Shown here in pieces: positions 19,148-36,692 of a stretch of 42,673 nucleotides of DNA. The notes beneath the pieces were generated by a model. That model saw only the letters and a list, made by a program, of their open reading frames with translations, searched no databases and had not been told where the DNA came from. A program made the position numbers and the translations under genes. Origin of the DNA: Clostridia bacterium (GTDB taxonomy: Bacteria; Bacillota; Sulfobacillia; SLMV01); NCBI GenBank assembly GCA_003552525.1, contig PUNF01000194.1:1-42673 (forward strand), written 5' to 3'. The stretch's first letter is position 1. Every line of letters starts with the position of its first letter.

Positions 19148-19173
19148 GCGGCGGGTGCCGGGGCACCCGCCGC
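19148..19173 (-). terminator. Perfect GC hairpin after glyA (no U-tract)
   Basis: GCGGCGGGTGCC-GG-GGCACCCGCCGC, 12-bp perfect stem between the glyA stop and the RBS of the next gene. Confidence 0.45.
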
Positions 19174-24752: not shown

Positions 24753-26261
24753 TCATGCGTCGGAGGCATCCGCCTCGTCCACGGGCTGCCAGCACACCAC
24801 GGGTGAGCGGGCGGCTCCGCTTTCGTCGAGGCGGCGCACCGGCGTGTGCATCGGGGCCTCGTGCAGCCGCTCGGGATCCTCGGCGGCATCCTCGGCGATC
24901 TGTATCATGGCGTCGATGAACGCATCCAGTGTCTCCCGGCTCTCGGTCTCGGTGGGCTCGATCATGAGGGCCTCTTCCACGATGAGCGGGAAGTAGACCG
25001 TCGGCGGGTGGATGTCGTAATCCAGGAGGGCCTTCGCGATGTCCACGGTGGCCACCCCGTGTTCCCGCTTCTGCCAGCGACCCGAGAGGACGAACTCGTG
25101 CATGCACGTGCGATCGAAGGGCAGGTAATAGTGCGCCTTCAACGCCTCCATGAGATAGTTGGCATTCAACACGGCGTCCCCGCTGACCGCCTTCAGCCCG
25201 TCGGGGCCGTGGGAGCGGATGTAGGCGTAGGCCTTCAGCACCACGCCGAAGTTGCCGGTGAAGGCACGCACCTGCCCGATGCTCTTGGGAATGTCCCAGC
25301 ACAGGTGGTAGCCGTCGTCGTTGCACTCCACCAGCGGTGCGGGCAGGTAGGGTACCAGCTCGGGCACCACCGCGATGGGCCCGGAACCGGGTCCACCCCC
25401 GCCGTGGGGCGTGCCGAAGGTCTTGTGCAGGTTGAAGTGGACGATGTCAAAGCCCATGTCCCCCGGCCTGGAGTAGCCCAGGATGGCGTTGGCGTTGGCC
25501 CCGTCGTAGTAGAGGAGCCCGCCCACGCCGTGGATGATCTCGGCGATCTCGAGGATGCTCTCGTCGAAGACGCCGAGGGTGTTGGGGTTGGTGAGCATCA
25601 GGCCGGCGACGTTCTCGTCGACGATGGCCCGCAGCGCCTCGATGTCCACGCACCCCCGCTCATCCGAGGGCACCTCGACAGTGCGGTAGCCGGCCATGGC
25701 CGCCGTCGCCGGGTTGGTCCCGTGGGCGGAGTCGGGGACGATGATGACGTCCCGGTCCTCGCCGCGATCCTCGTGGTAGGCGCGGATGAGCATGATCCCG
25801 GCCAGCTCGCCGTGGGCACCGGCGGCGGGCTGCAACGTGGCGCGCTCCATGCCGGCGATCTCGCAGAGGTACTTCTCCGTCTCGTGCAGCAGCTGCAACG
25901 CGCCCTGCACGGTGTGGTCGGGCTGGTAGGGATGCAGGTGGGCGAACCCGGGGAGGCGCGATACGTCCTCGTTCACCTTGGGGTTGTATTTCATGGTACA
26001 CGAACCCAGCGGATAGAACCCGGTGTCCACGCCGTGGTTCATCTGCGAAAGCTTCACGAAGTGTCGCACCACGTCCACTTCCGCCACGCCCAGGATGCCG
26101 ATTTCCTCCTCCCGGAGGGCCTCGGCGGGGAGCAGGGCGTCCATCGGCTCCTCCGGCACGTCCAGCGGGCCGAGCCGCACGCCCCGGCGCCCGGGAGAAC
26201 TCAGCTCGAAGATCAACGGTTCCTTGACCTGCAACTTCCGTCCCTCGCCTTCTCTGGTCAT
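24753..26261 (-). CDS. gcvPB: Glycine dehydrogenase (decarboxylating) subunit 2
   Basis: [16 protein letters not shown]...[17 protein letters not shown]...[25 protein letters not shown]. Confidence 0.96.
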
Positions 26262-28008: not shown

Positions 28009-29121
28009 CTATCCCTCCCGCTGGTAAAATGGAATTTTTACTACCACGGCACTTAGCTTACGTTTACGTACCCCGATCTGCAACTGCGTACCCCACTTGA
28101 TCATCTTCGGCGGCACGAAGCCGAGGCCGATGTTCTTGCCGAGCGTCGGGGAAAAGGAGCCGCTGCTGACGTGCCCCACTTCCTCGCCGTCGGTATCGTA
28201 TATGGGGTAGCCCGTGCGGGGTACGCCCCGTTCCTGCATCTCGAAGCCGACGAGGCGCTTGGCCAGGCCCTCTTCCTTGGCCCGCTTCAACGCGTCCCGG
28301 CCGATGAAGTCACCGGCGTCGAGCTTGACGGCAAAGCCCAGCTTGGCCTCCAGGGGGCTGATATCCGGACCCAGTTCCTGCCCGTACAGGGGAAGGGCGG
28401 CCTCGAAGCGCAGGGTATCCCGTGCGCCGAGCCCCGCGGGCTGCAACCCGTGGTCTTCGCCGGCCTCCATCAGGGCCTCGTAAATCCCGGGCGCGTCTTC
28501 CGGCGCGCAGTAGATCTCGAACCCGTCCTCGCCGGTGTACCCGGTGCGGGACACCAGCGCAGCGTGCCCGGCCACGGACACATCCGCGTCGAAGCGGAAA
28601 AAGCCGATGTCGGCGGGATCCCGGTCGGCGACCGCGCGCAGGATGGCCTCGGCCCGGGGGCCCTGTAACGCCAGCTGGGCGGTATCGGGGGATTCGTCGA
28701 CGACTTCCACGTCGAAGGCGGCGGCCTGCTCCGCGATCCATTGGTAGTCCTTTTCGGCGTTGGCCGCGTTGACCACCATCAGGAACTCGTTTTCACCGAC
28801 GCGATAGGTCAGCAGGTCGTCCACGGTGCCCCCGTCGGGGTAGCACATGGGACTATACATGATCTGGTTGTCGGCGATCACACTGAGGTCGTTGGTCAAC
28901 AGGAAATCGACGCACGCGAGGGCCTCGGGACCCGTGACGCGGACTTCTCCCATGTGGGAGACGTCGAACAGCCCCGCCGCCTCGCGCACGGCGCGGTGCT
29001 CCTCGAGAATCCCCTCGTACTGGACGGGCAGCGCCCATCCGCCGAAATCGATGATCTTGCCTCCGTACTTCTCGTGGATGTCGAACAGCGGCGTTTTCCT
29101 GAGATCTTGACCTTCGGACAT
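28009..29121 (-). CDS. gcvT: Aminomethyltransferase, glycine cleavage T protein
   Basis: [70 protein letters not shown]. Confidence 0.97.
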
Positions 29122-29150
29122 ACCATCACCTCCACGTAATCATACCACGC

Positions 29151-29173
29151 GTCCCGGCCCGGGCGGCCGGGAC
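29151..29173 (-). promoter_or_regulatory. Perfect 9-bp leader hairpin between riboswitch terminator and gcvT
   Basis: GTCCCGGCC-CGGGC-GGCCGGGAC on the + strand. Confidence 0.6.
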
Positions 29174-29176
29174 AGC

Positions 29177-29217
29177 AAAAGGGGACAGCGGCGCGCAGCT
29201 GGCAGCCCTCTGTCCCC
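29177..29217 (-). terminator. Intrinsic terminator of the glycine riboswitch expression platform
   Basis: RNA sense: GGGGACAG...CTGTCCCC followed by TTTT; the 5' arm is the 3' end of aptamer II. Confidence 0.8.
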
Positions 29218-29360
29218 TTTACCTGAGAGATTCCCCGGGCAGGTCCCGGGTTGCTCCTTCGGTGCTCGACTGGCGAGTCTCTCCAGAGATCCGTCGGGCT
29301 ACGGTCCAAGGCCTGAGAGTTTACCCCTTCGGCGCACACCTCGCGATGCGACTCTCCCGC
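29207..29360 (-). ncRNA. Tandem (two-aptamer) glycine riboswitch
   Basis: RNA sense: GCGGGAGAGT...GCGCCGAAGGGGTAAACTCTCAGGCCTTGGACCG...CTGGAGAGAC...GCACCGAAGGAGCAACCC...GAATCTCTCAGGTAAAGGGGACAGAGG; two copies of the glycine aptamer core, directly upstream of gcvT. Confidence 0.93.
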
Positions 29361-29377
29361 AGCCGTCATTCGGTTCG

Positions 29378-29986
29378 CTATCCATTCGTGATCCGGACAC
29401 TGCCCGCAATCGGGGGCACGGGTGCCCGTTGGTATTTTTCGCGAAACGCGGGGAAACTCCTCCCCCGCGCCCACATCCTTTCGCCGTGCACGCCCCGGGC
29501 GGCGCAGTCCCGGGGCCGAATGGAGGCGTCGGCCTCGGCGACGAGCACGATCTCGCCGAAGGATCCCAGCAGGAGGGGCGTCGGCCCCGGTGCCTCCACC
29601 CGCAACACGACGGTGGGATGCTCCAGCGCCGTTCCGGTGATCGGGTGGGACGCGGGCGCGTCCGGCGCGGCATTGATCACCCAGACATCGATGGCGTCGG
29701 CCTCGATATCCCCGAGGGCCTCGAGGTTCAGTGCGGTGTATTCCCGGGCCTTGGCGTCGGCTATGTCCTCCAGCAGGCGTACTTCTCCCTCGACCAGTGC
29801 ATCCCAATCCACCGATTGCACAGCCGCCAGCGCGGCCAGGTCCGTGCCCGATTGCAGGCGCGCCCGGTGCAGCAGGAGGTTGCCCAGGTTGACCACCAGG
29901 GCGGTACTGGCCAGGATGACCGGGAGCCAGAGCACGAGCATGGTCGCGGCGGCGCCCCGTTGCCTAGCGATCGTCCAACCGCTCAC
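29378..29986 (-). CDS. TadG/pilus-assembly TadE/G-like protein
   Basis: QRGAAATMLVLWLPVILASTALVVNLGNLLLHRARLQSGTDLAALAAVQ, typical TadG-like N-terminus. Confidence 0.75.
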   Translation of the reverse strand: MSGWTIARQRGAAATMLVLWLPVILASTALVVNLGNLLLHRARLQSGTDLAALAAVQSVDWDALVEGEVRLLEDIADAKAREYTALNLEALGDIEADAIDVWVINAAPDAPASHPITGTALEHPTVVLRVEAPGPTPLLLGSFGEIVLVAEADASIRPRDCAARGVHGERMWARGRSFPAFREKYQRAPVPPIAGSVRITNG

Positions 29987-30368
29987 TGCGCGTCACCACC
30001 TCCGCCTCGAGGAGAATCTCGGCCGGGATGATGGGAATGAGGAAGGGGGAGCGCACCCGGTAGGGATATGCGACCTCTACCCGCACCGGGCGACCGTAGG
30101 CCACCTGCTGCGGGCTCACCCCCACCTCGCCGGCCTCCGGGTCGAGCCCACCCATGTCGAGCAGCGCATCCACCCGATCCTCGACCGCACCGGACCAGCC
30201 CCCGTCGATGGATGCCTGCCGGGCCCCGTCGCGCGCCGCGCCGGTGACGACCAGCTGGGCGTCCAAAATGAAGCCCAGTTCGAGGCACATCAGTAGGAGC
30301 ATCAGCAGGATGGTACTCACCAGGGCGAACTCCGCCGTTACCGCGCCACGCTGTCCGTTCGCTTTCAT
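29964..30368 (-). CDS. TadE-like pilus assembly protein
   Basis: NGQRGAVTAEFALVSTILLMLLLMCLELGFILDAQLVVTGAARDGARQAS. Confidence 0.85.
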   Translation of the reverse strand: MKANGQRGAVTAEFALVSTILLMLLLMCLELGFILDAQLVVTGAARDGARQASIDGGWSGAVEDRVDALLDMGGLDPEAGEVGVSPQQVAYGRPVRVEVAYPYRVRSPFLIPIIPAEILLEAEVVTRSERLDDR

Positions 30369-30385
30369 CGATCTCACCTCCGCCC

Positions 30386-30416
30386 GGCCCCGGGGAACGC
30401 GGGGTTCCCCGGGGCC
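30386..30416 (-). repeat. 13-bp perfect inverted repeat between flp and tadE
   Basis: GGCCCCGGGGAAC-GCGGG-GTTCCCCGGGGCC. Confidence 0.8.
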
Positions 30417-30422
30417 CCTTTG

Positions 30423-30617
30423 CTAGCCGCTCCCCGTGATCTCGCTGACGATATCGCTCAATTGGTCGCTGAGCGCACCCTCGAGACTGGTCAGGCTCGC
30501 GATGAGGGCGATGGCGACCAGGGCCAGTATCAACGCGTACTCGGCGGTCGCGGCACCGCGCTCTCCGCCGGCGCCGCGCGCCAGCACGGCCATGGCCTTC
30601 GCATGAAGTGTACGCAT
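30423..30617 (-). CDS. flp: Flp/Fap-type pilin
   Basis: 65 aa, GGERGAATAEYALILALVAIALIASLTSLEGAL: class III prepilin motif. Confidence 0.9.
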   Translation of the reverse strand: MRTLHAKAMAVLARGAGGERGAATAEYALILALVAIALIASLTSLEGALSDQLSDIVSEITGSG

Positions 30618-30658
30618 CACGTGACATCCCTCCCCTCGCGCCGGGTCGCGCTTCACAC

Positions 30659-31273
30659 TCAGCCGGTAAGAAAGGTCAACAGGTTGGGCAGCACGATCAA
30701 CACGAACGCCGGGGGAAAGAGGAGGAACACCGTGACCAGGGTGATACGCAGGCCCAGGGTGCGAAGGTGCGCGCCCACCTCCGAGCGCCGCCTGCGCACC
30801 ATGTGCCCACGCAGTTCCGCCAGCGCCGACGCCAGGGGCAGGCCGTCGCGCACAGAATCCACGAGCAGCCACGCCACCTCCCCAGATTCCCCTCCCCCGG
30901 CCTCGAGATCCCGGGCCAATCCCTCGAGGAGGGAGTCCCCGACGGCGTGCCGGGCCAGGCTGTGCGCCAGCACCGGGTGCAGCCGGCTTCCCGCCATCGG
31001 CGCGGTTTGCGCCACGGCATCGGGCAGGTTCAACCCGCAGGAGGCCGCGACGTACAGCATGTCCATCCACTCGATGACATCGCGGTCGAAGGCGTCCTCC
31101 TCCCGCCGCCGCCCACGCCGGTCGAACATGTCGAACGCGGGGCGCAGGCGCCCCGCCCCCCGTCCACCCCGGAGACGGTGCCACAGGGTGCCCAATCGAC
31201 CGCCCCAGAGCAACGTCCCCGACGCCACCAGGAGCCCGCACCCGCCGCAGAATACCAGGTGGACCGGGATCAT
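30659..31273 (-). CDS. tadC: Type II secretion system F domain protein, TadC-like
   Basis: DVIEWMDMLYVAASCGLNLPDAV...DGLPLASALAELRGHMVRRRRSEVGAHLRTLGLRITLVTVFLLFPPAFVLIVLPNLL. Confidence 0.85.
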   Translation of the reverse strand: MIPVHLVFCGGCGLLVASGTLLWGGRLGTLWHRLRGGRGAGRLRPAFDMFDRRGRRREEDAFDRDVIEWMDMLYVAASCGLNLPDAVAQTAPMAGSRLHPVLAHSLARHAVGDSLLEGLARDLEAGGGESGEVAWLLVDSVRDGLPLASALAELRGHMVRRRRSEVGAHLRTLGLRITLVTVFLLFPPAFVLIVLPNLLTFLTG

Positions 31274-31980
31274 GTGGCCAACCTCCCGGCCCGGGCCAGG
31301 ATGCGGTGGATGAGGAGAATGCCCAGGATCCACGCGGAACCGGCCGCGGCGAGCGCCGCCCGCCCGAACCCGACCTCGAACAGCGGGGTGAGCATATCGC
31401 CCCGGCCCAGGAGCCCAAAGGCGGCGGCTGCCAGGGGAATACAGGCCACAATGATGGCCGAGTACCGCGCCTCGGCGGTCTCCTCTCCGATCCGCGCGCG
31501 CAGTTCCCGCCGTTCCCGCACGACGCGTTCCAGGGCACCCAGGCCGTGCCCGAGTTCCCCGCCGGTCTCCCGGCTCAGGGCCAGGGCGGTGATGAAGCGG
31601 CCGTATGTCGGGTCCGGCAGGCGTTCGTAGGATTCCCGCAGCGCCGTCTCGAGGGGCACACCCACGGCATACGCGTCCAACACGGTTCCGAGCTCCCGCA
31701 CGAGGATGCTCCCCCGGGCCTCCCGGGCACCCGACCGAATCACCTCCAGGACGGTCCGGCCGGCCCGGGCGCGCCGCATGAACATGGGCATGTTCTCCTC
31801 CAGCTCCGCACCCATGCGTTCCCGCTCCCTCCGCCGGCGGTGTGTGCGCCAGCGTGCGCGGGCGCGCGCGACGACGGCCGCCGTGGGCGCGGGGTTCGCG
31901 GCCGGTATGCCCTGCGCAAGACACACCGCTGCCCCCGCCCCGAGGCCCAGTCCCGCGGATATCAACACGCGCAGCCACAT
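31270..31980 (-). CDS. tadB: Type II secretion system F domain protein, TadB-like
   Basis: MFMRRARAGRTVLEVIRSGAREARGSILVRELGTVLDAYAVGVPLETALRESYERLPDPTYGRFITALALSRETGGELG; ATGA overlap with tadC. Confidence 0.85.
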   Translation of the reverse strand: MWLRVLISAGLGLGAGAAVCLAQGIPAANPAPTAAVVARARARWRTHRRRRERERMGAELEENMPMFMRRARAGRTVLEVIRSGAREARGSILVRELGTVLDAYAVGVPLETALRESYERLPDPTYGRFITALALSRETGGELGHGLGALERVVRERRELRARIGEETAEARYSAIIVACIPLAAAAFGLLGRGDMLTPLFEVGFGRAALAAAGSAWILGILLIHRILARAGRLAT

Positions 31981-33153
31981 CTAGGCGTCCTCCCTTCCAC
32001 GATCGAGCGCGTCCACCGCGCAGACCGCGACGATCCGGCGTTTCCCGTCCGCATCCCGGACCAGGTGCACGATGCGGTCGAAGGACTCGCGGACCTGCTC
32101 GACCACTGCCCGGTAGGGAATGCCGGAGTCGGCCATCTGCACGAGGTGCACCATGCGCGTCAGCGCATGCCGCGCACCGGCGGCGTGAATGGTGGCGAGG
32201 GAACCCGCGTGGCCGGTGGTGAGAGCGACCAGCAGTTCGAAGGCCTCGGCACCCCGTACTTCCCCGATGATGATGCGGTCGGGCCGCATCCGAAGCGCGT
32301 TGCGGACCAGCTCCCGCATGGTCACCGCGCCCCCGCCGTCGGGATTCGGGAGGCGGGTCTCCAGCCGCAACCAGTGCGGGTGTTGCAGCTGCAGCTCGGT
32401 GGAATCCTCGATGGTGACGATGCGCTCGCCGGACGCAATGCCGCGCGATAGCGCGTTCATGAGCGTCGTCTTTCCGGTACCGGCCGCGCCGCAAATGAGC
32501 AGGTTCTCGCGGTGGTTGACGGCATCCCGGAGTTGGACGGCCGTGTCCGCGTCCAGCGTCCCGCGTTCGACCAGGTCCTCGAGGTCGAACATGGCGCTGC
32601 TGAACTTGCGCACGGTCAGGTAGGGACCGTCGACGGCCAGGGGCGGCAGGATGCCGTGCACGCGCGATCCGTCCGGCAGCCGCCCGTCCGCCCACGGGTG
32701 CGCGAGGTCGATCCGACGTCCCGCGTCCCCGAAGATCCGCTCCAGCAGGTCTTCCAGCTCCTTCCGGTCGGTGAACCGCGCCTCGGTACGCCGCAGCGTG
32801 CCATCGCGTTCCACCCAGATCTCCCCCGGGCCATTGACCATGATCTCGTTGACCCGGTCGTCGGCCAGCAGGTCGGTTATGGGCCCGAACCCGAGCAGGG
32901 TCTGTGCGATGCGGCGGACGCCATCGCGATCGGTGGGTGCGTCGCCGACCCGCTGGTACTCCGCGATCAGGGTGCCCACCAGCCGGTAGAATTGCCCGCG
33001 CGCCTTCTCCTCGGCCCGGGCGCGTTCCAGCAGGGGCCGATGTGCCCGTAGCACGCGGCCCTGGATCTCCCGGAGCATCGGTGCATCGCGCTCCCCCGAT
33101 GCCCGCCACGCTTGGTCCGTTCCGTGTTCGTATCGTGCGTCGCGCTCATCCAT
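31981..33153 (-). CDS. tadA: Tad pilus assembly ATPase, CpaF/TadA family
   Basis: LGFGPITDLLADDRVNEIMVNGPGEIWVERDG, ICGAAGTGKTTLMNALS, IIIGEVRGAEAFELLVALTTGHAGSLATIHA. Confidence 0.95.
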   Translation of the reverse strand: MDERDARYEHGTDQAWRASGERDAPMLREIQGRVLRAHRPLLERARAEEKARGQFYRLVGTLIAEYQRVGDAPTDRDGVRRIAQTLLGFGPITDLLADDRVNEIMVNGPGEIWVERDGTLRRTEARFTDRKELEDLLERIFGDAGRRIDLAHPWADGRLPDGSRVHGILPPLAVDGPYLTVRKFSSAMFDLEDLVERGTLDADTAVQLRDAVNHRENLLICGAAGTGKTTLMNALSRGIASGERIVTIEDSTELQLQHPHWLRLETRLPNPDGGGAVTMRELVRNALRMRPDRIIIGEVRGAEAFELLVALTTGHAGSLATIHAAGARHALTRMVHLVQMADSGIPYRAVVEQVRESFDRIVHLVRDADGKRRIVAVCAVDALDRGREDA

Positions 33154-34333
33154 GCAAGAGTTCCGCTCCCTTCGCCCATACCTTTCGCTTGAGCACCTGC
33201 CACCACGCGACCCGATGGGCCCGATTGGGCGCGGCGCCGTAAACCTCGCCGATGATTGCATCCATCGCCGCCCCGATGGGGGAATCGGGCTGTGCGCCGC
33301 ACACCGGTTCCCCGCGGCCGATGGCATCGGATACGCTCGCGCCGAGATCGGGGATGGAGGCCAGCACGGGAATGCCGAGAGTGGCCCGGACCTGTGCCGA
33401 CCGCAGCGAACTGGCCGGGGCGAACCGGTTCAGGACGGCGCGGCCCCGGTCGCCAAAGGATCCCGTCCCCATCCACGGTGCGAGGCGCTGGAGGGAAGTG
33501 GGATCGTCGGAAACCGGGCACAGCAACAGGTCCGCCGCCTCGATCGCCGCCGGACCCACGAAGTCGGCGCCTCCCGAGGCGGTATCGACCACCAGGGCAT
33601 CGTACATGCGCCGCATGCAGCGGAGGGTGGGCAACAACGCGTCGGTACCCGCCAGTTCGACGAGCTCGCGGCGCCCGGGGGCGGCGAGCACGTCGATGCC
33701 GCTGCCGTGCCGCGTGATCAAGCCGCGGAGCAGTTCCGGCGTGACATCGCCACCGTAGGCCACGGCATCCATCAGGGTGGGCCCCTCGGGGAGGCCGAGG
33801 TGCGCGCGTACATCCCCACCGCCCACGTCAAGGTCCAACAGGCCGGTTTTCAAACCCAGCCCTGCGACCAACCGGTGGGCCAGGGCGACGGCCAATGTCG
33901 TCTTGCCCACGCCCCCCTTGGGATTGAACAATACCAGGGTGTGGGGACGGGCCAGGCCGGCGCGCTCCCCGTCATCCTCCGTCGTCCGCCCCCCAGGGGA
34001 AGGCCGTTCCCCCGCGCGTCCCGCCTCCGCGGGGACCTCCGCCAGCAATACGCCGGGCGGCGGGGTCGGCACCCCATCGGTGGAATCGTGCAGGCACACG
34101 ACCACCGAGAAGGCGTCGCACCAACCGGTCAGCGTGGACGCCGGCAGGTCCGCCATAGTACTGGCGTCCACCAGGAGGATCTCGTCCGCCCCGCGGGGCG
34201 CGAGACCCGCTTTCGGGTCGACGATCACGCGGGCGATCCGCGCCATCCCGGCGCCCTGCACCCGCGCGGCCAGCGAAAAATCGCGGGTCACCAGCGTCGC
34301 CGGCGTGGCCTCGCCCGCGGTGGCGGCCCTCAT
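33146..34333 (-). CDS. CpaE/TadZ-like ParA/MinD-family ATPase
   Basis: TLVLFNPKGGVGKTTLAVALAHRLVAGLGLKTGLLDLDVGGGDV; ATGA overlap with the upstream cpaB stop. Confidence 0.88.
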   Translation of the reverse strand: MRAATAGEATPATLVTRDFSLAARVQGAGMARIARVIVDPKAGLAPRGADEILLVDASTMADLPASTLTGWCDAFSVVVCLHDSTDGVPTPPPGVLLAEVPAEAGRAGERPSPGGRTTEDDGERAGLARPHTLVLFNPKGGVGKTTLAVALAHRLVAGLGLKTGLLDLDVGGGDVRAHLGLPEGPTLMDAVAYGGDVTPELLRGLITRHGSGIDVLAAPGRRELVELAGTDALLPTLRCMRRMYDALVVDTASGGADFVGPAAIEAADLLLCPVSDDPTSLQRLAPWMGTGSFGDRGRAVLNRFAPASSLRSAQVRATLGIPVLASIPDLGASVSDAIGRGEPVCGAQPDSPIGAAMDAIIGEVYGAAPNRAHRVAWWQVLKRKVWAKGAELLHG

Positions 34334-36662: not shown

Positions 36663-36692
36663 GGAGGGGGAGGACCGCGGTCCTCCCCCTCC
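36663..36692. terminator. 30-nt perfect palindrome between convergent genes
   Basis: GGAGGGGGAGGACCGCGGTCCTCCCCCTCC; no T-tract on either side. Confidence 0.65.

Follow-up and report, generated by a model that had tools for sequence, protein, structure and literature searches.

A canonical tandem glycine riboswitch upstream of gcvT with a second CUGUCCC copy in a genome-specific, most likely incidental hairpin

The stretch of DNA analyzed here (42,673 nucleotides at its full length, hereafter the window) carries on its minus strand the glycine-metabolism genes gcvT, gcvH, gcvPA and gcvPB, which were identified by their Pfam domains and run from position 29121 down to position 24753. Upstream of gcvT, cmscan placed two RF00504 aptamers in tandem, both above the gathering score (Table 1). 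Immediately upstream, on the same strand, is a Tad pilus cluster (TadG-like, TadE and T2SSE ATPase; Pfam) at 29378-33327. With 8 nt between the end of the TadG-like frame (29378) and aptamer I, the riboswitch may be transcribed as part of the pilus operon or from a promoter within the TadG-like gene.

Table 1. Features of the riboswitch, its expression platform and the start of gcvT, with coordinates in the window.
Feature	Coordinates	Strand	Basis
Glycine riboswitch aptamer I (RF00504)	29292..29369	-	cmscan 51.6 bits, gathering 32
Glycine riboswitch aptamer II (RF00504)	29205..29291	-	cmscan 57.4 bits, gathering 32
Aptamer II P1 3' strand, CAGAGGGC	29205-29212	-	P1 pairs from folding
Terminator hairpin, GGGGACAG with CUGUCCCC plus upper stem-loop	29181..29217	-	folding, 7/7 family platforms
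Terminator 5' arm GGGGACAG, aptamer II 3' strand	29210-29217	-	sequence
Terminator upper stem and loop, 21 nt	29189-29209	-	sequence, folding
Terminator 3' arm CUGUCCCC with first CUGUCCC copy	29181-29188	-	sequence
Terminator U-tract UUUU	29177..29180	-	sequence
Second CUGUCCC copy, last five nt within hairpin 2	29169..29175	-	sequence
Hairpin 2, GUCCCGGCC-GCCCG-GGCCGGGAC, perfect 9-bp stem, 5-nt loop, genome-specific	29151..29173	-	folding, genome search
Extended -10-like element TGGTATGAT, candidate riboswitch-independent promoter	29139..29147	-	7/7 family, 1/14 other class members
gcvT Shine-Dalgarno (SD) GGAGGUG	29127-29133	-	sequence
gcvT start codon ATG	29119-29121	-	sequence
gcvT, first gene of gcvT-gcvH-gcvPA-gcvPB	28009..29121	-	Pfam GCV_T, GCV_H, GDC-P

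Folding of the expression platform yielded a terminator hairpin of -22.8 kcal/mol with pair probabilities of at least 0.99, in which the 3' strand of aptamer II pairs with the first CUGUCCC copy ahead of a U-tract that is short in the window (4 U). The terminator stem overlaps and excludes aptamer II P1/J3-1, and because CAG serves both structures, the terminator and P1 are mutually exclusive, as in an ordinary switch. The initial annotation had read this pairing in the same way, and the strings it named all lie on the minus strand where it had placed them, with CUGUCCC occurring twice. Its layout was correct in its elements but joined GGGGACAG directly to GCUGUCCCC, thereby omitting the 21 nt of the upper stem and loop.

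To place these features in context, we used the window's family of eight genomes, all of which carry the riboswitch (8/8) and seven of which have a readable platform. The second same-genus genome (G002) was left out because its contig breaks off within aptamer II and its assembly lacks gcvT; this leaves G001, whose GcvT is 78% identical, as the one relative from the same genus whose platform can be read. The terminator was kept in all seven readable platforms, each of which folded better than its shuffles (z -2.9 to -5.7), and 96% of the outer-stem cells in the family alignment were paired, compared with 44-60% when the stem was slid by 1-3 columns. Five of the eight outer pairs are invariant across the family, as the 5' arm belongs to the conserved aptamer, and since most stem pairs never vary, covariation support for the terminator is thin. 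In many of the other platforms of the same class (among L001-L030), GGACAG of aptamer II, examined by eye, likewise forms the terminator 5' arm with a downstream TGTCC. Two tandem glycine riboswitches of the class (L004 in G059 and L008 in G028) precede a thioredoxin-reductase-like frame (MADRYDLVIVGGGPAG..., recognized by eye) rather than gcvT.

In the absence of glycine, the aptamer II 3' strand would pair with the first CUGUCCCC and transcription would end at UUUU, while glycine binding would hold aptamer II P1 and allow RNA polymerase to continue into gcvT. The Bacillus subtilis gcvT tandem riboswitch turns its operon on through a rho-independent terminator that forms without glycine (PMC5666159), and it is from this system that we infer the direction of the glycine response. 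The riboswitch itself is ordinary, one more case of a textbook tandem glycine riboswitch upstream of glycine-cleavage genes.

The second CUGUCCC copy is partly taken up by the perfect 9-bp hairpin that the initial annotation had described (hairpin 2), with five of its seven nucleotides sitting in the 5' arm. Hairpin 2 had a folding energy of -20.3 kcal/mol and pair probabilities of 0.93-1.0, ends 17 nt before the gcvT SD, and is followed by GCGUGGUAUGA with no U-tract. The two hairpins had been proposed to be mutually exclusive; instead, both the terminator and hairpin 2 appeared in the minimum free energy structure (MFE), whether the platform (-57.8 kcal/mol) or the entire leader was folded, each with a probability above 93%. 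The second copy had also been proposed as an alternative partner for the aptamer strand, giving at least three structures, and it is indeed complementary to GGGGACAG, exactly over 7 nt. However, when the second copy was constrained to pair with the aptamer strand, the energy rose to -37.8 kcal/mol from -57.8 kcal/mol, a cost of ~20 kcal/mol, and the probability of this pairing was 0 at printed precision in both the free and the P1-held ensembles, such that there was no appreciable second-copy pairing with the aptamer strand. From the order of the sequence, moreover, the second copy lies beyond the U-tract and is therefore absent when the termination decision is made.

The P1-held ensemble, in which aptamer II P1 was constrained, served as a stand-in for the glycine-bound state; like the other folds here, it is an equilibrium calculation, with ligand and tertiary contacts lying outside the model. 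Holding P1 abolished the terminator and left hairpin 2 in place, with the second copy still unpaired with the aptamer strand. When the P1-held fold ended exactly at hairpin 2, the outer three pairs of the hairpin frayed to 0.24-0.80, and they were restored once the following bases were included. Pairing of the first copy with the hairpin 2 3' arm (GUCCC/GGGAC) was also considered and rejected, its probability being near 0.

Hairpin 2 was missing from all six other readable family platforms, including that of the same-genus G001, which aligns poorly to the window over this region, and none of the six has a second CUGUCCC at the window's position. Unlike the window, these six relatives show no arrangement of a second CUGUCCC with a hairpin; the initial annotation had itself named such an absence from close relatives as evidence against its proposal. 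We also considered whether hairpin 2 might be preserved among the relatives as a structure in different sequence, but rejected this because the six segments folded no better than shuffles: between the terminator and the -10-like element described below, the window's segment had a z of -4.4 against its shuffles, compared with -0.7 to +1.5 for the six other members, and the longest perfect stems in the other family spacers were 3-6 bp. The hairpin 2 sequence occurs once in the window's genome, which led us to reject a repeated genomic element, and that occurrence was the sole mismatch-free match in the nine genomes searched. Among the other family spacers, only that of G005 (L011) contains a second CTGTCCCC (CUGUCCCC in RNA), 68 nt downstream of the terminator stem and past the -10-like element; ~1% of shuffles are expected to contain CTGTCCC.

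In dinucleotide shuffles of the window's own 47-nt spacer, a 9-bp stem was rare (P 0.002) and CUGUCCC rarer still (P 0.0007), although the two values are linked, since the stem is built in part from the copy. Given this improbability, selection may have played a part. Across the 42.7-kb window (68% GC), however, perfect stems of 9 bp or more with loops of 3-8 nt occur at nine separate sites, which makes hairpins of this kind common in the genome; with nested loops counted, there were 15 perfect-stem hairpins in the whole window versus a Markov mean of 2.65 counted likewise. One of these strong hairpins, at 30386-30416, is a perfect 13-bp GC-rich stem without a U-tract that precedes the TadE gene and follows a short frame resembling an Flp pilin (by eye, with its stop at 30423), and similar hairpins lie at 36663-36692 and 19148-19173. 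Some of them (30386-30416 and 19148-19173) directly precede an SD-like sequence. As to its origin, the second copy could stem from a 13-nt slippage duplication, in which GCUGUCCCCUUUU is followed by GCUGUCCCGGCCG.

In the same spacer, all seven family members have an extended -10-like element, TGnTA(a/t)(a/g)(a/c)T, between the terminator and gcvT. Its distance is 29-40 nt from the terminator stem upstream and 5-83 nt from the SD downstream (n=7), and for each spacer 2-18% of shuffles are expected to carry the looser TGnTAnnnT. Among platforms of the same class, the element is confined to the window's family (7/7), being found in 1/14 members outside it, where 0.65 were expected. It was found with a promoter pattern set in advance, five letters of which are fixed, and an open search for any 6-of-9 letter motif common to the seven spacers found none in either real or shuffled data, so the element rests on the preset pattern rather than on unbiased discovery. 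Genome-wide, TGNTATRAT outnumbered its reversed control 2-4-fold in four genomes of the family, with 75 versus 37 occurrences in the window's genome, 39 versus 10 in G001, 112 versus 32 in G005 and 103 versus 33 in G007. Twenty places were inspected in the window's genome, and several of the TGGTATAAT sites among them are followed, 24-51 nt downstream, by a start codon that has an SD and opens a long frame. All four TGGTATGAT sites inspected there look like coding sequence (Trp-Tyr-Asp), which makes the window's exact variant the weaker evidence, and by eye no convincing -35 box was seen near the element.

Given its conservation and its likeness to promoter motifs elsewhere in the genome, the -10-like element could be a riboswitch-independent promoter. 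We tentatively suggest, from sequence, that the family's gcv operon may have a second, extended -10 promoter directly after the terminator that would supply a constitutive baseline under glycine control, a reading that we regard as possible while giving it somewhat less than even weight. Transcription starting 6-7 nt downstream of the element would, in the window's genus, coincide with the SD (29133-29132), such that the transcript predicted by this same tentative reading would begin at about the SD itself. If it is a promoter, the element would show an operon bypassing its own riboswitch for its basal level, which would be modestly interesting. A literature search found no report of a riboswitch with an internal promoter 'downstream of the riboswitch' or a second promoter 'downstream of the terminator'; a broader literature on riboswitches, internal promoters and terminators exists.

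With regard to hairpin 2, we consider it very likely that the locus is a canonical tandem glycine riboswitch, a transcriptional ON switch, whose second CUGUCCC lies in a genome-specific and most likely incidental hairpin. Hairpin 2 would form locally and autonomously, after the decision and in both states, and would need no role. Because it is genome-specific and formed too late and too independently to belong to the switch, we infer that the hairpin and the repeated motif are probably incidental, at most a passive spacer or mRNA-stabilizing hairpin. The initial annotation was thus essentially correct in what it observed, and its reading of the terminator, an ordinary one, holds; the additional switching state finds no support.

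The best-surviving alternative is that hairpin 2 is functional but passive in the read-through mRNA, where it might shield the ribosome-binding site of gcvT from the riboswitch or protect the mRNA from exonucleases. Its stability in both states, its position relative to the SD and the similarly placed hairpins elsewhere in the window would suit such a role, but with the hairpin missing from the six other family platforms, whose segments fold like shuffles, we consider it rather unlikely. A back-up terminator or pause signal would fit a GC-rich stem right after the first terminator, but appears highly improbable given that GCGUGGUAUGA comes next without a U-tract; a terminator scan called no site here, although the same scan misses the first terminator, the form of which is outside its criteria. 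Less probable still is that the 23-bp palindrome is a DNA operator upstream of the -10-like element, controlling a second gcvT promoter: the palindrome ends 3 bp before the conserved TGGTATGAT, but it is unique in the genome with no second site and is missing from relatives that retain the -10-like element. A three-state switch, in which the second CUGUCCC would vie with the first for GGGGACAG with hairpin 2 gating access, would make for a more complex platform, but despite the exact complementarity it is the least probable reading of all, as the energetic penalty, the near-zero probability in every ensemble, the transcription of the second copy past the termination point and the lack of conservation of both copy and hairpin all argue against it.

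We therefore return to the canonical riboswitch with a most likely incidental hairpin. Like B. subtilis gcvT, the window combines tandem aptamers with a single expression platform containing an intrinsic terminator and a gcvT operon downstream (PMC5666159). What may set the window apart from that system, seen from the window's side only, is the added hairpin that follows the U-tract and carries a second CUGUCCC, together with the -10-like element before gcvT.
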